IMG/VR virus record: IMGVR_UViG_3300012936_005865
Location: 1 to 61,562 of that record
Direction: 5' to 3' (one strand)
Source: a virus
DNA length: 61,562 nt
Below the pieces are notes generated by a model, which was not told the origin of the DNA, made no database searches, and saw only the letters and a program-made list of their open reading frames with translations. The stretch's first letter is position 1. Every line of letters starts with the position of its first letter. The translations under genes and the position numbers were made by a program. This document shows, piece after piece, positions 7,022 to 50,851 of the stretch.

Positions 7022-7411
7022 ATGAAAATAACAAAAAGACAATTAAAAAGAATTATCAAAGAAGAATATAGCGCGCTAAAAAGAAACGCAATGATTCGTG
7101 AGAGTATCGATCCAGTAACTGGGATCGGCTCCCAGGAAGCCGATGAAGCAATATATGATTACATGGAGTCGTATGCCGAAATATTTGCCAGCGAAGCTGT
7201 AGAACACTATATTTTGGGCCCTGCGGTTTTACAGGGAGACATATCTATGATAGCTCAATACATAGATAGACTCGAGTCTTTCAATGAAATGCTTCGCATG
7301 TTGAAATATGATGGAGTTATTGTAAGCGCTCGTTATCTCAAACAAACACTACAAGAATCCCCATTTTTTGATATGATGATTGAATCCGCTCAGGATATGA
7401 TGGAATATTAA
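7022..7411 (+). CDS. tagged hypothetical protein, 129 aa
   Basis: Starts MKITKRQLKRIIKEEYS, nearly identical to the tag of the genes at 6556 and 7413. The rest is an acidic helical protein (about residues 30-129) with many Met, Glu and Ile. It follows the bL36 stop by one base. No known fold. Confidence 0.7.
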   Translation: MKITKRQLKRIIKEEYSALKRNAMIRESIDPVTGIGSQEADEAIYDYMESYAEIFASEAVEHYILGPAVLQGDISMIAQYIDRLESFNEMLRMLKYDGVIVSARYLKQTLQESPFFDMMIESAQDMMEY

Positions 7412-7412
7412 A

Positions 7413-7811
7413 ATGAAAATAACAAGACGACAACTTAGAAGAATCATTAGAGAAGCTGTAGATATGCAACAGCAACCATACAAGGCAATAAGGGCCGCAA
7501 AGTCCCAGATTCAGCTTTTAGAAAATGATCTTGATGAACTCGCAAGATCTATGGCCGGCGAATCTGATATGGAAGAATTAGAAATAAAATGGCACATGTA
7601 TCAAACGGCTCTATCAGAACTACAAAAGCTTACTAACGATCTACACAAAATATACAAGAAAAAAATATTAAATCCAAGACTTAATAAAGCTGCTGAATAC
7701 GGGAAAGCAAAAAAGGCCGCAAGAAAAGCTAGGACCCAAAGTATTCGAGACGAAGAAATAAAAATGCCCGATAAAGAAGCATATAATATGGATGACCATT
7801 TCTGGGGATAA
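7413..7811 (+). CDS. tagged helical protein, 132 aa
   Basis: N-terminus MKITRRQLRRIIREAVDM; Ile-Arg-Glu-Ala matches the [IL]-x-E cleavage motif of T4-type prohead proteases. Residues 20-85 form a predicted coiled coil. A Lys/Arg/Ala-rich stretch follows (about residues 92-117), which could bind DNA. The C-terminus is acidic and ends in Trp-Gly. Packaged internal proteins of T4 look similar in size and charge. Confidence 0.7.
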   Translation: MKITRRQLRRIIREAVDMQQQPYKAIRAAKSQIQLLENDLDELARSMAGESDMEELEIKWHMYQTALSELQKLTNDLHKIYKKKILNPRLNKAAEYGKAKKAARKARTQSIRDEEIKMPDKEAYNMDDHFWG

Positions 7812-7814
7812 AAT

Positions 7815-8912
7815 ATGAATAATCTTAGACACATAATCAGAGATCTAATCTTAGAAATGGCTGTACGACAAGATATCCTGGATTCTGTAAGGGGCACAAG
7901 AAAGAAAACAATGTTGCTCGGCAAAAAACTTGATTTCAGTACTTGGTCGGATGGCAGAAGATATCAATCTAGTTACGGAAACCAGATAAAACCAAATGGC
8001 TTGTGGTATGGATATGGTTCTGAGTGGGTTGATTTTGCGATGGATCCTGCAAACAAAGGCTTGTCGGGAATGGTAACCGGTGCAGATTATTTTTATGAAT
8101 TAGATGTGCATTATACTACCTTAGAAAATCCCAATAAAGATAAGGTTTTATTGTTAAGAAATTACGAAGATGCCGGCAAACTTTCAGAACTAATCGACGG
8201 AGAACTTAACAGAGTCGGAGGAATGATGATGGCAAATTGGTACGCGATTTCAGCTCTCTTCGGCGGACTAGAGGTTGCTGATGGATTAGAATCTTATTTT
8301 GGTTGGGATATACCTTCCGGTTGTATCTGGTCAAAGAATGCAATTAAGAGCATAAATTTAATTCAGGATCCGGAAACCATGGAAGGTATTCCTCGAGGGG
8401 CTAAAGCCCTAGGTATTAATTTTACTTTTGACCCAGACGCAAAAACTTTTGCCGATATCGATAATGAAAAAATATTAGAACTTATCGAAGAATATGACGA
8501 TGATTTTCATTGGGAGGGCCATGCAGAATATGAATCCGAGGAAGCCTTGAAAGACGGAGCCGAGAATATATGGGATGCTTTGCAAGTCGCATATAACTTT
8601 GAGGAAGAAGACTGGTTCGAAGCCGCGGTAGATGGTCGACATAGAAACATATACCCCCGGCAAATGTTGTCTGCTGGAATCTGGTTAATTACACATTTTA
8701 GGGAGAGGGATGGGTCATATTGGGGAGTGTCTGGCATGCCCCCGCGGCTTCCCAGAGATGCTGATTACAGCGATGTTTTAGACAATATCAACGCATACTT
8801 GACCAGAGTGTCAAATGAACTTAATCTAGGGCTCGGTAACATAGATCTAGATGCCGACGGCACCTGGGATAATGCTGTTTCTGCAGAAATGGCAGCAGAA
8901 TATGGTTATTAA
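7815..8912 (+). CDS. tagged protein, possible ADP-ribosyltransferase-like fold, 365 aa
   Basis: The N-terminus MNNLRHIIRDLILEMAVR is the recurring tag ending Leu-Ile-Leu-Glu. Residues 55-80 contain Pro-Asn-Gly-Leu-Trp-Tyr-Gly-x-Gly-x-x-Trp. Near residues 155-175 there is a Gly-Trp-Asp-Ile-Pro-Ser-Gly-Cys-Ile-Trp segment. I associate this GLWY / WDxxSGCIW combination with phage proteins thought to share an ADP-ribosyltransferase-like fold. The C-terminal half is acidic. T4 packages the ADP-ribosyltransferase Alt, so a tagged ART would fit, but no R-S-E triad can be assigned with confidence. Confidence 0.6.
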   Translation: MNNLRHIIRDLILEMAVRQDILDSVRGTRKKTMLLGKKLDFSTWSDGRRYQSSYGNQIKPNGLWYGYGSEWVDFAMDPANKGLSGMVTGADYFYELDVHYTTLENPNKDKVLLLRNYEDAGKLSELIDGELNRVGGMMMANWYAISALFGGLEVADGLESYFGWDIPSGCIWSKNAIKSINLIQDPETMEGIPRGAKALGINFTFDPDAKTFADIDNEKILELIEEYDDDFHWEGHAEYESEEALKDGAENIWDALQVAYNFEEEDWFEAAVDGRHRNIYPRQMLSAGIWLITHFRERDGSYWGVSGMPPRLPRDADYSDVLDNINAYLTRVSNELNLGLGNIDLDADGTWDNAVSAEMAAEYGY

Positions 8913-11148: not shown

Positions 11149-11177
11149 TTGTAAATCTAAAAGCAATTCAATATAAT
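11149..11177 (+). promoter_or_regulatory. promoter TTGTAA-17-TATAAT
   Basis: TTGTAA at 11149-11154 and TATAAT at 11172-11177 with 17 bp between. It starts 5 bp after the upstream stop and drives the gene at 11227. Confidence 0.75.
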
Positions 11178-25365: not shown

Positions 25366-25639
25366 AATCACGTGCATATTGAAAACAGAAGGAGTCCTTT
25401 CTGAACAGGGTGAAAAGGGCTGGTGGTATCCAAATCAAAAAAGGCCAGTTTTTATTAAAGAAGGTTCTCAAATAGAACACTTGCAACTTTGGAGACACCA
25501 GGGAGACTATCTGGCTTTTCGAGTTCGAGCAGAAGATCTTGACAGGACCTTTGAAGAATCAGATAGACATATTTGTGTCTGGATAAAGAAAGAAACGTGT
25601 GGTTGGTTGTTCCGAAATCAGGAAGAGCTTAGTTTGTAA
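25352..25639 (+). CDS. hypothetical protein, 95 aa
   Basis: GTG start with a cggagaaaaa site, overlapping the membrane protein by 14 nt. It is a Trp-rich beta-like protein (GWWYPNQKRPVFIKEG, LRDIWIKKETCGWLF in outline). It is the last gene of the kinase operon; its stop lies within the -35 of the tmRNA promoter. Function unknown. Confidence 0.6.
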   Translation: MKKNKITCILKTEGVLSEQGEKGWWYPNQKRPVFIKEGSQIEHLQLWRHQGDYLAFRVRAEDLDRTFEESDRHICVWIKKETCGWLFRNQEELSL

Positions 25640-25673: not shown

Positions 25674-26044
25674 GGGGGCGCAAAGGTTTCGACAGGGTAG
25701 ATTGATTGCTGTGGTGCATGTCGGTTGAGAACGACCGTAAAAGTTCAAAAATATATAATTGCCAATAATAATGAGCATTTTGCTCTTGCAGCTTAACAGC
25801 CAAGAGTGAACGTCCGGTGATCCGATTCTTGGGTCCTTCACTGGGCGTGTAAAGACCAAGATAGTCCTGACCGATTTCTACGGAAGTATATTGCAGGGGA
25901 CGATAAAGGAACCAGGTTTAAATCTTCTGTCTATTATAGGTAGGTTTCCATCACCGTCTATATTTAGTAATAAGCATGGATAAGCATGTAGGACCACTAG
26001 TTATTTTGCTGTGGACGGGGGTTCGACTCCCCCCGCCTCCACCA
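25674..26044 (+). ncRNA. ssrA: transfer-messenger RNA (tmRNA), about 371 nt
   Basis: Rescues stalled ribosomes by trans-translation. The 5' GGGGGCG (25674-25680) pairs with CGCCTCC (26034-26040) as an acceptor stem, followed by ACCA, so the CCA end is encoded. A T-arm with GTTCGACTC is at about 26015-26035. The 5' end GGGGGCGCAAAGGTTTCGAC is the tmRNA signature. The reading frame begins at GCC 25761. One-piece form; pseudoknots are expected between the frame and the T-arm. It has its own promoter and lies between the kinase operon and tagged genes. Phage tmRNAs are uncommon. Confidence 0.93.
25761..25796 (+). other. tmRNA proteolysis-tag reading frame
   Basis: Resume codon GCC, then AAT AAT AAT GAG CAT TTT GCT CTT GCA GCT and TAA: tag ANNNEHFALAA. 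The Ala-Leu-Ala-Ala end is the usual ClpXP-type degron, so tagged proteins should be degraded by host proteases. The resume position is inferred from the family pattern of GCN followed by Asn codons. Confidence 0.88.
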
Positions 26045-26062
26045 CTTACATAAGGAAATACT

Positions 26063-26365
26063 ATGAAGCTATCAAAAAGGCAATTACGCAAAATTATAAA
26101 AGAAAGAGTATATACCTCCAAGAATATGCAGAGACTATCGTATAGTCATGAAAAGTTCTTAGATAGGCAGCGAGAAAAAAAATACTTACAATCTCCAGAA
26201 TACTATAATAAAAAAATGATCGAGTATTCTGTTGGCCTCTTAGAAGCTTTTACTGAGAACGATGAAGAAGAAATAGAAGAATACCGGGATGAACTAGGCA
26301 CTGACGATATCGATGCAATCATTGAGATATATGAAGGAATTATTCGCAAACTAAGAGAATCATAG
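26063..26365 (+). CDS. tagged acidic protein, 100 aa
   Basis: Starts MKLSKRQLRKIIKERVYTS, the tag form closest to the genes at 6-7.8 kb. The remaining part is helical and acidic (NDEEEIEEYRDELG). It follows the tmRNA 3' end by 18 nt and has an aaggaaat site. Packaging or scaffolding role possible only by analogy with the tag. Confidence 0.68.
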   Translation: MKLSKRQLRKIIKERVYTSKNMQRLSYSHEKFLDRQREKKYLQSPEYYNKKMIEYSVGLLEAFTENDEEEIEEYRDELGTDDIDAIIEIYEGIIRKLRES

Positions 26366-26676
26366 TGAAAATGACAGAATCAAAATTAAGAAAAGTAATT
26401 CGTAGAACCATTAGAGAATCGCAAAGATATGGTTTTCCTCTCTGGCTTTATTATGATGGGACTCATTATTCTCTGAGTAAGAACCACAGTAGAAAGTATT
26501 ACGAAACCGATTATGATCGAATTGCGTATGCATTAAGAGCCGCCAAAGAGGAAGGGTACGACGAGGTTATAAGGGTAGTTGGTAATCAAGAACCAAAGGC
26601 TCCAGAGCCTATCGATAAAGTAATAAATTCGTTTGATGGTAAATCAATTGAGGCTTTTGCATATAGAGACTACTAG
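26365..26676 (+). CDS. tagged protein, 103 aa
   Basis: GTG at 26365 overlaps the upstream TAG by one base (ATG 26371 is an alternative). MKMTESKLRKVIRRTIRESQ is the tag, ending Ile-Arg-Glu-Ser. The middle has a Tyr/His-rich strand pattern and a helix (AYALRAAKEEGYDEVI), a small alpha-beta unit. Unknown function. Confidence 0.66.
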   Translation: MKMTESKLRKVIRRTIRESQRYGFPLWLYYDGTHYSLSKNHSRKYYETDYDRIAYALRAAKEEGYDEVIRVVGNQEPKAPEPIDKVINSFDGKSIEAFAYRDY

Positions 26677-26691
26677 ACCTAGGAGAAAGTT

Positions 26692-27903
26692 GTGTTAATA
26701 ACAGAAAAAAAGCTTCGGAGGTTTATTAGTGAAATATTCATGAATTTTCGGAATGACCCCAAGGAAAGAATTAAGCGACGACATCCTGCATTGACTGATA
26801 TAGTTAATGCTGTTAACGCAGCAGCAGAAGTTGTCGGATACACAACACTCAAAGATTTTTTGTGGTCAATAAATCATAAATTTGCAAATAACAAGGTAAT
26901 AGAATCAAGAAAATATATTTCAGAAAATATTAAATCTCAAGAAGGCTGGCGGGCCGGTCCGGATATGGATTGGCCAAATTATTACAGAAGGTCCGAACGT
27001 CAAAAACCTGCAATGGTACCGGTGCTAGATTCAAGTGACTCTTATGAAATAGAATCAGTTGGAACTCATGGTGGTTTATCACATATGATAAAGCATCTAC
27101 ACGAGTGGGACGAGTCGATAGTTGATAATCTCGCAGAACAAATAAGGGAATTATTTGCAGCCTTATTGACCCCGGAAGGAAAGACTTTAACGTTACGAAC
27201 AAAATCTGGCGAGACTCACACGGTGGAATCGGTTGATGACTTAAAGAAAGGGGTTTTTATAACCTATCTGGACTATATAAACGACAAATTAATTTCAGAT
27301 GGCTACTCCGAACTTTCCGTCTTTGAAAAAGAAGTTTTAGAAGTTGCTTCTTCTGAATATTACATTTACAATGCATTGGGCGAGGAACTCGAAAACAAAG
27401 CTGTAGATGTAAGTGATAAAGCTTTTCCTGATATAGAAGTGCTAGCTGAATTCTTAGAAACAGGACCCACTATTGAATATGAAGAACACAGGAAAATTAG
27501 TGACAAAATGACCATAAAAAGAAAATGTGTTATGGACCTGAGTACTGGTTGGTTTGTTGGATATGATTCAGTTGATGGATCGGCAAACTTGCTTACAATA
27601 TTTCAGATGCAAAAACAAGCGAAAAAAGGAATTTATAAAACACTTCTGTTGTTATCTCCTACAAAACGTTCAGCAAATCGGAAAAAACAAAAATACACAC
27701 ACACAAAAAATAAATCCCAGTTGACAAAGGATTATACAAATTTAAGAATTCTTTCCATGATCGCAAATGACAAAAGAGGGTTTATTAGTGCTGCTCAAGC
27801 GGCGAAGGATAAAAAGAATTCAAAAATGAAAAAACCTATCCCTGTAACCAAAGGAACAGAGGACTTAAAGAATATCAAATTAAAAAGAAAAAAAAGAAAA
27901 TAA
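26692..27903 (+). CDS. tagged basic protein, 403 aa
   Basis: GTG start with an aggagaaagtt site. N-terminus MLITEKKLRRFISEIFMNF is a tag variant (Phe-Ile-Ser-Glu). Residues 40-300 are mixed alpha-beta with no known domain; an Asp-Leu-Ser-Thr-Gly-Trp strand lies near 280. The last 100 residues are extremely Lys/Arg-rich (SANRKKQKYTHTKNK, KRKKRK), a likely DNA-binding tail. A tagged, strongly basic protein is a good candidate for packaging with the genome. Confidence 0.68.
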   Translation: MLITEKKLRRFISEIFMNFRNDPKERIKRRHPALTDIVNAVNAAAEVVGYTTLKDFLWSINHKFANNKVIESRKYISENIKSQEGWRAGPDMDWPNYYRRSERQKPAMVPVLDSSDSYEIESVGTHGGLSHMIKHLHEWDESIVDNLAEQIRELFAALLTPEGKTLTLRTKSGETHTVESVDDLKKGVFITYLDYINDKLISDGYSELSVFEKEVLEVASSEYYIYNALGEELENKAVDVSDKAFPDIEVLAEFLETGPTIEYEEHRKISDKMTIKRKCVMDLSTGWFVGYDSVDGSANLLTIFQMQKQAKKGIYKTLLLLSPTKRSANRKKQKYTHTKNKSQLTKDYTNLRILSMIANDKRGFISAAQAAKDKKNSKMKKPIPVTKGTEDLKNIKLKRKKRK

Positions 27904-27905
27904 AT

Positions 27906-27934
27906 TTGTAAAAATAATCGTTAGTCTCTATAAT
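27906..27934 (+). promoter_or_regulatory. promoter TTGTAA-17-TATAAT
   Basis: TTGTAA at 27906-27911 and TATAAT at 27929-27934, 17 bp apart. Drives hsp20, which forms its own unit with a terminator at its end. Confidence 0.78.
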
Positions 27935-29355: not shown

Positions 29356-29395
29356 GTGTAACGAGTATCGAAACTAGTTAAATTATAATTGTAAC
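29356..29395 (+). promoter_or_regulatory. class-2 promoter, copy A (GTGTAA-17-TAAATT with TGTAAC direct repeat)
   Basis: GTGTAA at 29356-29361 and TAAATT at 29379-29384 (17 bp). TGTAAC occurs at 29357 and again at 29390, 33 bp apart. The same layout precedes 29838 and 31166. A TTGTAA at 29345 has no -10 at the right distance. Confidence 0.65.
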
Positions 29396-29414
29396 TAACA
29401 ACCATGGAGGCACC

Positions 29415-29768
29415 ATGCGCAGGAAACTTTCGCGCGACATTGCAAAAGCTTTTGCCGCGAAAAAACAGGAATTGGCTTCTTCTAGTTCTCCGGAGCAAGA
29501 AAAACCAAAGTCACTAAAGCAGCAAAAAAGAGAAATCGGGCGTAACATTCGATACTCGGAAGAATTTTCCGACATGCAAGAAAAAAAGACTACCAGATGG
29601 TCTTACAAACCAAACATGTTGGTGCGATCAAAGAAGATTCGTGGCCATGCTCCACTTGGAGAAGACAGGGTCTTCTTAGTCGTCGACGTCCGCGGAGATT
29701 ACCTAGATGTTCTTGTTGAGCAATCCATTCAGAATTATCACAGCAAATATTTTTTTCCAATAAACTAA
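29415..29768 (+). CDS. hypothetical basic protein, 117 aa
   Basis: The start has a catggaggcacc site. The N-terminal half is basic and helical (RRKLSRDIAKAFAAKKQ, then a Ser/Pro/Lys linker). The C-terminal half (from about residue 65) is a small strand-rich unit: Asn-Met-Leu-Val-Arg-Ser, Phe-Leu-Val-Val-Asp-Val-Arg-Gly-Asp-Tyr, like the MKxGDLV barrels. It carries the same class-2 promoter as the MoxR and VWA genes, so it is likely co-regulated with them and may be an accessory factor. Confidence 0.65.
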   Translation: MRRKLSRDIAKAFAAKKQELASSSSPEQEKPKSLKQQKREIGRNIRYSEEFSDMQEKKTTRWSYKPNMLVRSKKIRGHAPLGEDRVFLVVDVRGDYLDVLVEQSIQNYHSKYFFPIN

Positions 29769-29777
29769 CAAAAATCA

Positions 29778-29817
29778 GTGTAGCCAACCTAGCCATAAGC
29801 TAAATTATATATGTAAC
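29778..29817 (+). promoter_or_regulatory. class-2 promoter, copy B
   Basis: GTGTAG at 29778-29783, TAAATT at 29801-29806 (17 bp), and TGTAGC at 29779 / TGTAAC at 29812, 33 bp apart. Drives the MoxR-type gene. Confidence 0.65.
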
Positions 29818-29837
29818 CAAAAAACAACGGAGTCCAC

Positions 29838-30932
29838 ATGGCGAAAACAACCATCTCAATTTCATCCTTCAAATCCGTCGCACCGCTGCTTCCGCCTTCA
29901 AAAGCTATTCTTATGCGGGGCCCTACTGGTATCGGTAAGTCTCATCTTGCCAAGCAGATTGCCGAACATCACGGTTTGCCTTTTATCGATGTCCGCGGGT
30001 CTACAATGTCCGAAGGTGATGTTGGCGGCTATCCAGACATCGAAGGAATGAAAGAATCCGGAGTCATGACTTTCTGTATGCCATCATGGTTTGTGCGCGC
30101 ATGCAACGAACCTGTGGTTCTTATGCTTGACGAGCTGAATCGTTCTCTTCCAGGCGTGCAACAATCTTTCTTTCAGCTTGTTCTAGATCGAGAGCTCGGG
30201 AATGACAAGAACGGTATGCCTTATAAGCTTCATCCACAGACTCGCGTAATTGCCGCTGTGAACGATGGTTCTGAGTACGATGTAAATGACATGGACCCTG
30301 CGCTTCTGCGTAGATTCTGGGTGTGTGACCTGCTTCCAACGGTTCAAGACTGGACCGTATGGGCAAAACAGAATAATATCAGTTCAATCATGATTGATTT
30401 TATCAATCAAAATCAACCTCACTTTCGTATCGATCCATCTCAAGTCGAGCCTGGAACTGTTGTGCCTTGTCCTGCTACTTGGGCTGACTTAGACCAATGT
30501 CTCAAGCATGCCGGGATAGACCTTCGCAAGTGTGCTGGTAAAGAATCTCCCGAAGGACTATACATTATGGCTCTAGGTCTTGTTGGTACTTCTGCTGCTG
30601 TGGCATTCTCTGCTTTTGTCAAAGAGTACGATATACAAATCTCTGCAGAGGACATACTCGACGGTATAGTTACAGAGTTCGAGGAGTATGATATATCTAT
30701 GCTTAACTCTGTTATCGAAAAGCTTGGAGACCATTCTCGTGAGAATAAGTGGACCAAAAAACAAGCCGAATATGTTGCGAATTTTGCAAAAGCTATATCT
30801 GGTGAGATGATGGTATCTACATGGAACAAGATTACTTCCTCACAAAATCTAGACAACATCCAAAAAATTCACAAGCTAATGGGCCAAGACGTCGTCGCAG
30901 CTGTGCAGGCATCTAGAAATCTAGGAAAATAG
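29838..30932 (+). CDS. MoxR-type AAA+ ATPase, 364 aa
   Basis: Walker A Gly-Pro-Thr-Gly-Ile-Gly-Lys-Ser at residues 28-35, then Pro-Phe-Ile-Asp-Val-Arg-Gly. Walker B Val-Val-Leu-Met-Leu-Asp-Glu-Leu-Asn (about 93-100) and a sensor/Arg-finger region with Asp-Pro-Ala-Leu-Leu-Arg-Arg-Phe. This is the MoxR/CobS-like subfamily, which works with VWA proteins to remodel or activate target complexes. Its partner is the VWA-metallopeptidase-like gene at 31166, which uses the same class-2 promoter. Phage versions in marine T4-like phages are often labelled CobS. The last 120 residues are helical and lineage-specific. Confidence 0.83.
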   Translation: MAKTTISISSFKSVAPLLPPSKAILMRGPTGIGKSHLAKQIAEHHGLPFIDVRGSTMSEGDVGGYPDIEGMKESGVMTFCMPSWFVRACNEPVVLMLDELNRSLPGVQQSFFQLVLDRELGNDKNGMPYKLHPQTRVIAAVNDGSEYDVNDMDPALLRRFWVCDLLPTVQDWTVWAKQNNISSIMIDFINQNQPHFRIDPSQVEPGTVVPCPATWADLDQCLKHAGIDLRKCAGKESPEGLYIMALGLVGTSAAVAFSAFVKEYDIQISAEDILDGIVTEFEEYDISMLNSVIEKLGDHSRENKWTKKQAEYVANFAKAISGEMMVSTWNKITSSQNLDNIQKIHKLMGQDVVAAVQASRNLGK

Positions 30933-30933
30933 A

Positions 30934-31125
30934 TTGAATTATAAGGTTGGAGATCTTCTATACAAAGAGGACGGGAGTGCATGCGCTCTCGTCCTTGGTA
31001 TAATTGAAAACAAACAAGAACCCGATTGGTCAAAAATTATGCTTTTCCATGATGGAATGCTTTATTCTCTTTTTGGCAGGTCAATAAGAAATAAATTTAT
31101 TAAAATCAGTGTAACCAATCGATAG
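30934..31125 (+). CDS. KOW/SH3-like small protein with TTG start, 63 aa
   Basis: TTG at 30934 is preceded by a weak ctaggaaaa site and follows the MoxR stop by one base. The product reads MNYKVGDLLYKED, Ala-Leu-Val-Leu-Gly-Ile-Ile-Glu-Asn, then a Met-Leu-Phe-His-Asp-Gly strand. It is a lone copy of the small barrel family placed between the MoxR and VWA genes. Confidence 0.55.
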   Translation: MNYKVGDLLYKEDGSACALVLGIIENKQEPDWSKIMLFHDGMLYSLFGRSIRNKFIKISVTNR

Positions 31126-31148
31126 ACTAGTTAAATTAACTATGTAAC
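31109..31148 (+). promoter_or_regulatory. class-2 promoter, copy C
   Basis: GTGTAA at 31109-31114, TAAATT at 31132-31137 (17 bp). The direct repeat TGTAACCAA is at 31110 and 31143, 33 bp apart. Drives the VWA gene. Confidence 0.67.
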
Positions 31149-31165: not shown

Positions 31166-32572
31166 ATGTCTGATAATCTAAATGACGCAATCGAGACCAC
31201 CGAGGTCTCGGACGAGCAAGCCGCGGCCTTTGACCTCTCCCCACACCTTATTAGGCTTATGTGGGAAGAACCATTTTTCGCGCGAATATTTCAGACTATT
31301 GAAAAAACAAAGACTGAATCTATTCCAACCGCCGGTGTGATTGCAAAGAATTCTAGATTTCATCTTTATTGGAACCCTAAATTCCTGGCCGGTCTCAAAG
31401 CAAACGAAATAAAAGGTTTGCTAAAACACGAATGTTATCACTTGGTCTTTGAGCACACAACAACCCGAAAGAATGATCCACATATTATCTGGAACTATGC
31501 GACTGATCTTGCTATTAATTCTCTTATTGCAGAAGAAGAATTGCCAGAAGGCGGCCTCATTCCAGGTAAAAAATTCAAAAAGCTTTCTTCAGCCCAAATT
31601 AAAAGAATGGGAAAAGAGGCAGCTGATCGATACGATAAGGTCAGCTCAAAGATCGCTTCTTTTCCAAAAATGAAGTCTAGCGAATGGTATTTTGCAGAAC
31701 TAATGAACGATAAAGAAGTACAGGAAGCGATCAAGTCCTCTGAGGCGATGGCTGGAAAGTCTTTAGAACAAGCGATAGCAGATGGAGATGTAAAGCTTGA
31801 CGAGAACGGTAATCTTGTTGACAGAGACGGTAATCCGGTAACTGTAGTTCCTGGAAATGGCGATGGAACACCTATGGACTCTCACGAAGGTTGGGGTGAA
31901 CTATCCGATGAGCAGCGCGAGATGATGAAAGGCAAAATGAAAAAGGCCATAGCCGACGCGATCAATCGATGTGACGGCTCAAACCAATGGGGTTCCGTTC
32001 CGGCGGAGATGCAGCAAACATTAAGAAAGATGTTAGCGAACGAAATACCATGGCAGTCTGTCCTGAAACAGTTTGTGGGCATGTCAAAGCGTTCTTCTCG
32101 ACTGTCTTCCGTGCGCCGACTCAATCGTAAATATCCAGGAGTTCATCCGGGAACTTACAAAAATTATACAGCTTCTATAGCAGTATACGTTGATCAGTCT
32201 GGTTCTGTCTCAGACTCAGATTTAGAACTACTCGGTGGCGAGCTTGATGCACTGGCGGATAGGGTTGAATTCACATTGTACAACTTTGATACTAGCGTCG
32301 ATGAGGACTCTGAGCGCACTATCAAGAAAGGTAGCCGACTTACACTAGAAAGAACAAGATGCGGTGGGACAGACTTTCGATGTGTTCAGGACCACGCGAA
32401 TAAGAATAAGTCTAGATTTGATGGTTATCTAGTCCTCACAGACGGTTACGCCTCAGACCCAAAAGGGCACAACAAACTAAAAAGAGGATGGGTTATCGTT
32501 CCATACGGCCAGCTGCAGTTCCAAAATTCTAGCAGAGACTTTGTTATCTCTATGAAAAACAAGGCAAAGTAA
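31166..32572 (+). CDS. VWA-like protein with metallopeptidase-like N-terminus (DUF2201 type), 468 aa
   Basis: N-terminal part (about residues 1-200) has His88-Glu89-x-x-His92 in HECYHLVFEH, the metallopeptidase-like module of DUF2201 proteins. An acidic linker follows (about 195-250). The C-terminal VWA-like domain has Asp-Gln-Ser-Gly-Ser (MIDAS) near residue 343 and a Thr-Asp-Gly-Tyr strand. Such proteins pair with MoxR ATPases. With the gene at 29838 this makes a complete two-part module with shared class-2 regulation. The module may reshape host or virion complexes; the target is unknown. Confidence 0.82.
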   Translation: MSDNLNDAIETTEVSDEQAAAFDLSPHLIRLMWEEPFFARIFQTIEKTKTESIPTAGVIAKNSRFHLYWNPKFLAGLKANEIKGLLKHECYHLVFEHTTTRKNDPHIIWNYATDLAINSLIAEEELPEGGLIPGKKFKKLSSAQIKRMGKEAADRYDKVSSKIASFPKMKSSEWYFAELMNDKEVQEAIKSSEAMAGKSLEQAIADGDVKLDENGNLVDRDGNPVTVVPGNGDGTPMDSHEGWGELSDEQREMMKGKMKKAIADAINRCDGSNQWGSVPAEMQQTLRKMLANEIPWQSVLKQFVGMSKRSSRLSSVRRLNRKYPGVHPGTYKNYTASIAVYVDQSGSVSDSDLELLGGELDALADRVEFTLYNFDTSVDEDSERTIKKGSRLTLERTRCGGTDFRCVQDHANKNKSRFDGYLVLTDGYASDPKGHNKLKRGWVIVPYGQLQFQNSSRDFVISMKNKAK

Positions 32573-50566: not shown

Positions 50567-50803
50567 TTATAGATGACCGTACAATTGCTTTAATTTGCTC
50601 AAGGCAGACTTTTCTATTTGACATATGCGCATTCTAGTTAATCCGAATAAATCACCTATCTCCTGCAGAGTTCTGCTTCCTTCTTTGGCAGCTATTAGCA
50701 CACAATTATTTTTGCTCTTGCAATTTATCCAATATTTACAGGATGATTTTTTACAAGAAGATTTGAATTCCAGATGGGCATTATAACATGTTTTGTTTTT
50801 CAC
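50567..50803 (-). CDS. sigma region-4-like regulator with Cys-rich N-terminus, 78 aa
   Basis: I start at GTG 50803, 5 nt after a GGAGGTGA site; ATGs further up at 50815-50842 would contain that site. N-terminal Cys/His pattern (Cys-Tyr-Asn-Ala-His, Cys-Lys-Lys-Ser-Ser-Cys-Lys-Tyr-Trp, Asn-Cys-Val) is like a small zinc module. The C-terminus, Thr-Leu-Gln-Glu-Ile-Gly-Asp-Leu-Phe-Gly-Leu-Thr-Arg-Met-Arg-Ile-Cys-Gln-Ile-Glu, is a sigma-70 region-4 helix-turn-helix. Lacking region 2, it cannot be a full sigma factor. It may redirect host RNA polymerase to the phage promoters or act as an anti-sigma-like adaptor. Confidence 0.8.
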   Translation of the reverse strand: MKNKTCYNAHLEFKSSCKKSSCKYWINCKSKNNCVLIAAKEGSRTLQEIGDLFGLTRMRICQIEKSALSKLKQLYGHL

Positions 50804-50851
50804 AATCACCTCCATACTTGATATCATAATACATGAAATCAATTTTTACAA
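50799..50851. promoter_or_regulatory. divergent promoters of the sigma-4-like gene and phoH
   Basis: Minus strand: TTGTAA at 50851-50846 and TATGAT at 50828-50823, 17 bp apart, drives the sigma-4-like gene. Plus strand: TTCACA at 50799-50804 and TATCAT at 50822-50827, also 17 bp, could drive phoH. The two -10 elements overlap almost completely. Confidence 0.55.

Follow-up and report, generated by a model that had tools for sequence, protein, structure and literature searches.

A second promoter class, probably pre-late, in marine jumbo phages and its possible reading by a split sigma factor

Three linked genes in the window (i.e., the whole stretch of viral DNA analyzed here; 61,562 bases) are each preceded by one copy of the same element, which represents a second promoter class that is real and conserved; a group of related phages has this type and no fewer than one other. 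Taken as a whole, the explanation in which we have good confidence is that the element is a phage-wide core promoter, probably in pre-late use and most likely read by an RNA polymerase holoenzyme with a phage-encoded two-piece sigma factor; in this explanation, we infer where transcription starts, when the class is used, and what reads it.

The three genes and their phages

The trio consists of an ORF of unassigned function, a gene for a MoxR-type AAA+ ATPase, and a gene for a metallopeptidase-VWA protein. The genes and the parts of the three element copies (A to C) are listed below; unless a line says otherwise, the parts of the element were assigned by pattern match and column conservation.

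29415 to 29768, plus strand: 117-aa ORF, function unassigned, first of the trio; no match in Pfam or PHROG
29838 to 30932, plus strand: MoxR-type AAA+ ATPase gene (PF07728, 8e-16; phrog_1297, 6e-56)
31166 to 32572, plus strand: metallopeptidase-VWA protein gene, DUF2201_N plus DUF2201 (PF13203, 8e-18; PF09967, 4e-7)
29356 to 29361, plus strand: copy A, -35 box GTGTAA (the first half, TGTAAC, is at 29357 to 29362)
29379 to 29384, plus strand: copy A, -10 box TAAATT, 17 bp past the -35 box
29390 to 29395, plus strand: copy A, second half TGTAAC, expected start site, placed from the -10 position
29771 to 29777, plus strand: copy B, UP-like A-rich tract AAAATCA 5' of the -35 box, from column conservation
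29778 to 29783, plus strand: copy B, -35 box GTGTAG
29801 to 29806, plus strand: copy B, -10 box TAAATT
29812 to 29817, plus strand: copy B, TGTAAC, expected start site
31102 to 31108, plus strand: copy C, A-rich tract AAAATCA 5' of the -35 box, from column conservation
31109 to 31114, plus strand: copy C, -35 box GTGTAA
31132 to 31137, plus strand: copy C, -10 box TAAATT
31143 to 31148, plus strand: copy C, TGTAAC, expected start site

A search of isolate phages at the DNA level gave no close relative of the window region, and at the protein level the best 30 places among the matches listed were all below 32% identity. The MoxR protein has 66 relatives among viral contigs; searches seeded with the 117-aa ORF or with the VWA protein added none, because single-sequence patterns are too specific. 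The larger relatives (211 to 293 kb) carry an RpoD-like sigma gene that is absent from the window record, which is probably a fragment, and a gp23-type capsid gene was found in all six larger relatives tested. Four relatives are named below, i.e., G001 (288,697 bp; locus L005), G002 (273,025 bp; locus L006), G003 (the record of locus L007), and G004 (the record of locus L057). The nearest described group is that of the group 2.2 jumbo phages, with which our phages share MoxR-vWA(metallopeptidase) pairs, SprT-like proteases, sigma factors of their own, and a gp23-type capsid (PMC7824862).

Elsewhere in the window, otherwise unrelated ORFs at 7022-8912, 13943, 26063-26692, and 38043 share a similar basic N-terminal peptide (e.g., MKITRRQLRRIIREA), which could be a targeting or processing tag.

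Three exact copies in the window

The pattern TGTARC-N27-TGTAAC has three exact matches in the 61,562-base record and no others, all on the plus strand (29357, 29779, and 31110) and each 5' of a gene. Its half-sites lie at 29357/29390, 29779/29812, and 31110/31143 (i.e., exactly 33 bp apart in every copy), and the pattern occurred in 0 of 100 dinucleotide-preserving shuffles. The initial annotation, which had described the same 33-bp-spaced element before three genes and held such spacings to be beyond chance, was right on both points, and also in extending the repeat to TGTARCCAA in copies B and C (in both halves; copy A lacks the extension). The 17-bp spacer that it gave is real, with the small correction that it runs from the hexamer GTGTAA or GTGTAG to TAAATT, which is a normal -35/-10 distance in all three copies. 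When up to two mismatches were permitted in the window, the extra matches stayed at chance level (11 seen versus 7.2 expected).

The ORF starts at 29415, 29838, and 31166 lie 34 to 37 nt from the first base of TAAATT, and the gap from the end of each copy to the start codon is 17 to 20 bases. TAAATT agrees with TATAAT at only 4 of 6 positions. It is preceded by TAGT, AAGC, and TAGT, so that the extended -10 TGn of T4-type early promoters is absent from the window copies; that feature is present in the distant relatives G008 and G010.

A second promoter class across related phages

Motif discovery by EM, run without these seeds on 339 upstream regions of the window, G001, and G002 (289 and 273 kb), gave a single top motif, tTGTAaa...TA.atTat..atg, which occurs in 19% of the regions. 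Its members split into two groups. Class 1 (36 sites) combines TTGTAAA with TATAAT and serves genes that include those for RecA, a gp32-like protein, a helicase, and Hsp20; class 2 (28 sites) combines (c/t)GTGTA(G/A) with TAAATT or TACATT and ATATATGTAA, and has the consensus AAAAccT-GTGTAR-N17-TAMATT-ATATA-TGTAA. A class 1 site of the window is given for comparison.

27906 to 27934, plus strand: class 1 promoter TTGTAA-17-TATAAT before the Hsp20 gene

A position weight matrix built from 18 sites picked up 3 sites in the window; G001 and G002 gave 22 and 12, respectively, and the reversed sequences gave none. The moxR promoter of G001 and G002 (GTGTAG/GTGTAA-N17-TAAATT-N5-TGTAAG) has the same form as in the window. 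We also compiled a set chosen by the -35 box (GTG[TC][AG]) and the -10 box (TA[ACT]ATT) alone with the downstream region left free. Far from lying at random genomic positions, 36 of its 41 sites precede an ORF with a ribosome-binding site. Among these 36, column conservation is seen in the A tract and in both the -35 and -10 boxes but not in the spacer; A occupies -42 to -39 in 29 to 33 sites, and the G at -35 is part of the selection. The exact element was also scanned for in viral contigs, where its one match (L004) lies at a gene end with no obvious gene after it and was taken as chance.

Each of the three linked genes has its own class 2 copy in five phages (the window and G001 to G004), which bears out the proposal of a second promoter class apart from the TTGTAA promoters. 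Orthologues that keep class 2 between phages are the 117-aa-type ORF, moxR, the VWA gene, a RadA/KaiC-like ATPase gene, and a family of about 270 aa. The further suggestion that the element governs the MoxR-VWA module separately was rejected, since many other genes carry class 2: it precedes about 21 genes in G001 and about 12 in G002, among them those for the RadA/KaiC-like ATPase, an SprT-like protease, and the phage sigma factor.

Two other loci with such sites were noted. In the window, a tmRNA gene (25674-26044, plus strand; tag ANNNEHFALAA) stands behind a class 1 promoter at 25634. In G001, a promoter-like site (123201-123405; L083) lies 5' of an 821-aa protein that, judged by eye, resembles a polymerase of the PHP/Pol III alpha type, and a class 2 promoter and a 55-aa ORF are found just upstream.

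The repeat as probable parts of a single promoter

Computation directly shows the motif and its conservation, that it lies before genes, and that its halves are independent; the 33-bp repeat is the -35 box plus the start region, each at a fixed distance from the -10 box. The upstream TGTAAC would be the -35 box, and the downstream TGTAAC would be the transcription start with the first leader bases. Each copy would then be a core promoter of the phage-wide class, composed of an A-rich tract around -42 to -39, GTGTAR, 17 bp, TAMATT, and an ATATA-TG start region, and the exact 33-bp distance would reflect ordinary promoter geometry (6 + 16 + 6 + 5) rather than the span of a dimeric regulator.

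In the 36 class 2 sites, which were chosen without regard to the second half, TGTA is found at the +33 place in only 18; the other 18 have TATAA, CATAA, AAGAA, and others there, with the -35 and -10 boxes intact. Conversely, sites chosen by the -10 box and start region alone have GTG at -35 in 18 of 21 cases. All three copies of G003 and of G004 retain TGTAA, although G004 has lost the -35 half and only GTG, followed by variable bases, is left of the -35 box in G003. Covariation of the halves within a genome is not significant (P = 0.32 for G001 and 0.11 for G002), and the pooled values (P = 0.02 and 0.002) reflect differences between genomes. The halves are 8/9 identical in the window (n = 3 sites) versus about 4/9 in the relatives, and a sample of three sites leaves room for a special role of the repeat in the window alone.

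If TAAATT occupies -12 to -7, the TG of the downstream half comes to lie at -1/+1, which is also where most class 1 promoters of the window have a TG. Leaders of G002 that begin at TGTAA fold into hairpins (UGUAAGAAGAAAUCUUACA and UGUAAGGAGAAACCUUGCA) whose 5' arm begins at TGTAA, with one paired change and with U-G/U-A alternation. A stem starting at -1 to +2 was found at 10 of the 36 class 2 sites versus 2.2 in shuffles (0 of 500 shuffles), these sites not being independent because four G002 leaders are near-identical. The folded leaders are consistent with TGTAA as the putative RNA 5' end. For the window, whose class 2 leaders are unstructured, unlike those of G002, we rejected a hairpin as the explanation of the second TGTAAC.

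5'-terminal hairpins from the presumed start base occur in G002 class 2 leaders (L093, L101, L102, L104, and L105) and at 11149, 13030, and 27906 of the window; they are reminiscent of mRNA-stabilizing 5' stems. Upstream of moxR in L008, L009, L010, and L025, the spacer is complementary to the leader (in L009, around the -10 box: TCCCCTCCCCA ... TTGGGGAGGGGA).

Two operator readings of the same letters were weighed against this core promoter. According to the initial annotation, the direct repeat may bind a dimeric regulator (activator or repressor) that controls the MoxR-VWA module, as the three exact spacings and the nearly identical 9-mers of the window would suggest. It is hard to reconcile with half of the class lacking the second half, G004 lacking the first, halves that do not covary inside a genome, the presence of the element at other genes, and the coincidence of both halves with standard promoter positions. 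We rejected it as a general explanation because the halves decouple across sites and in G003 and G004; it is largely refuted for the class, and we regard it as very unlikely for the module. The other reading takes the -10/start region as an inverted-repeat operator (GTTACAT-N-ATGTAAC) at which a repressor closes the promoter later in infection. Several G001 sites are indeed near-perfect palindromes (GTTACATTACTAATGTAAC at 107144 and TTACATTATATATGTAA at 30430), and complementary changes are slightly more frequent than in permutations (11 versus 7.5), but this excess is not significant (P = 0.053), the window copies are imperfect, and the TAAATT of most class 2 sites pairs incompletely with TGTAA, which leaves such an operator improbable.

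Avoidance of the capsid-gene block

None of 21 class 2 sites in G001 and none of 12 in G002 fall in the capsid-gene blocks (123 and 155 kb, respectively). The P values for this avoidance (9e-6 and 4e-5) are indicative only, the block limits having been drawn post hoc after the sites were seen. The avoidance suggests pre-late genes, and we favor the view that class 2 serves genes outside the structural block before late expression, probably early. Inside the capsid blocks, gCATA(A/C)TTA recurs before genes without a -35 box and is a candidate late promoter; the T4 late box TATAAATA showed no enrichment before genes in either G001 or G002. The regions with gCATA(A/C)TTA extend over 157-280 kb in G001 and 25-180 kb in G002 (L084-L090 and L093-L100). 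Two distant relatives have promoter arrays with the look of early gene arrays: G013 has G-type promoters (GTGTA-N17-TATAAT), one per short ORF, at 208-226 kb, and G008 has about 15 near-identical promoters at 7-45 and 245-281 kb.

A candidate split sigma factor

At the -35 place of -10 boxes upstream of genes, TGTA prevails over the TGAC of TTGACA (8 versus 0 in the window, 22 versus 2 in G001, 17 versus 0 in G002, and 34 versus 1 in G013). The RpoD-like protein of the larger phages (L116 and L118 in G001 and G002, and others) contains Pfam regions 1.2, 2, and 3 and aligns to Escherichia coli RpoD 353-570; it stops soon after the RLRFGI of region 4.1, before region 4.2. A region 4 search of eight large records found family positions 1-18, weakly, at the sigma gene in six, and, in all eight, a separate small ORF with most of the remainder (typically positions 18-50). 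Every one of the eight large records that were examined for the two pieces had both. One alignment used the E. coli RpoD region 4 letters as a yardstick; the split was judged on database matches instead. The window has the small piece.

50567 to 50803, minus strand: 78-aa protein with four invariant Cys and a sigma region 4.2 helix-turn-helix, candidate -35 reader (PF04545 positions 12-50, E = 3e-12)
50823 to 50851, minus strand: class 1 promoter TTGTAA-17-TATGAT of the 78-aa protein gene

In the window, this gene and phoH (50861) are divergently oriented. Forty-eight aligned members of the small-protein family share the four invariant cysteines (C6, C17, C22, and C34) and TRMR.CQIEK, and their profile aligns to RpoD 568-599; PHROG 351 is covered at 482-692 by the large piece and at 691-726 by the small one. 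The predicted fold of the small protein has terminal helices of the helix-turn-helix type, and a fold search with it gave weak matches only (best E = 0.28), of which most were to sigma region 4. A search of isolate phages for the small Cys4 protein gave only short matches to ordinary region 4. The small-piece gene has class 1 promoters in the window and G001 and a less clear one in G002.

With complementary sigma regions in two co-occurring genes, the RpoD-like protein and the separate Cys4/region 4.2 protein look like a split sigma factor. In Bacillus subtilis SigO-RsoA, sigma regions are likewise split over a larger and a smaller protein (PMC10141391), whereas the phage cut lies inside region 4 (4.1/4.2) and four invariant Cys mark the small piece. 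The portions of the group 2.2 jumbo phage description at hand describe no promoters, and note a "minimal" HTH-only sigma, although not as the missing half of an RpoD-like sigma (PMC7824862).

Early promoters, promoter classes, and the reader

T4 early promoters have UP, -35, and -10 elements plus further consensus (PMC2988021), with a -35 box that starts with G and A-rich sequence at -40 to -44 (PMC1524935). Class 2 likewise has an A-rich UP tract, a G-led -35 box (its G having been preselected), a -10 box, and extra conserved start bases, and it too is a genome-wide class, probably for pre-late genes, that varies between related phages. It differs from T4 early promoters in its -35 box (GTGTAR, not GTTTAC), its -10 box (TAMATT), and its conserved TGTAA start region. 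The T4 middle promoters (a MotA box plus a -10 box) are similar in forming a second pre-late class beside another, but class 2 has no MotA box GCTT at -30 and has a box at the -35 position. Sigma-70-type promoters have two boxes 16 to 18 bp apart before a same-strand gene, and the three window copies, with 17 bp, are of this form; the class 2 sites do not match TTGACA/TATAAT.

Two further rivals concern the number of classes and the reader. It could be that there is one class only, with class 2 being class 1 promoters whose boxes have drifted, since one EM motif spans both, the distance from TGTA to the -10 box is the same in both, and UvdE, which has a class 1 promoter in G001, has one of intermediate form in G002. 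However, TAMATT and ATATATGTAA co-occur with G at -35, apart from T at -35 and TATAAT, and orthologues (moxR, VWA, and RadA-like) hold their class between phages, so we consider a single class unlikely. A stronger competitor shares the anatomy of the core promoter (UP tract, -35, -10, and extra start bases) and differs in the reader: these would be T4-type early promoters that the unmodified host holoenzyme reads at once after entry. The A-rich tract, the T4 parallels, and the arrays of G-type promoters, one per small ORF, in the distant relatives G013 and G008 speak for it, as does the G-type promoter that precedes the large sigma gene in each of G001, G002, G010, G011, and G013, by which the sigma factor may need to be made first. 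Against it, the class 2 sites of the window fall below 9/12 to TTGACA/TATAAT, compared with 10/12 for nearby class 1 sites, and the TG(T/C)A -35 box recurs in phages of 29 to 40% G+C, where TTGACA is nearly absent. We judge it a serious possibility that falls somewhat short of an even chance.

For the preferred core promoter class, the likeliest reader would be a holoenzyme with the phage two-piece sigma factor (RpoD-like to region 4.1 plus the Cys4/region 4.2 protein), to which we would give close to even chances, and the unaided host holoenzyme is nearly as likely for class 2. A two-piece sigma that reads TG(T/C)A boxes would be the most economical link among these facts; it could also read class 1 or the late-type motif in place of class 2. 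Only tentatively do we propose the full scheme, in which these uncultured marine jumbo phages cut sigma inside region 4, a Cys4 (metal/Fe-S) protein supplies the helix-turn-helix, and the pair reads the phage-specific TG(T/C)A -35 boxes of class 1 and/or class 2.

Implications

For a group of marine jumbo phages without a close isolate in the collection searched, these results map the promoters at the sequence level: two or more pre-late classes and, probably, a late-type motif. They also link the map with a two-piece sigma factor as a candidate. Should the small Cys4 protein prove to be the -35 reader, the group would offer a directly testable case of sigma specificity on a separate protein. 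If the split sigma factor is real, the polymerase would have its -35 specificity on a detachable part, which might be sensitive to redox state or metal.
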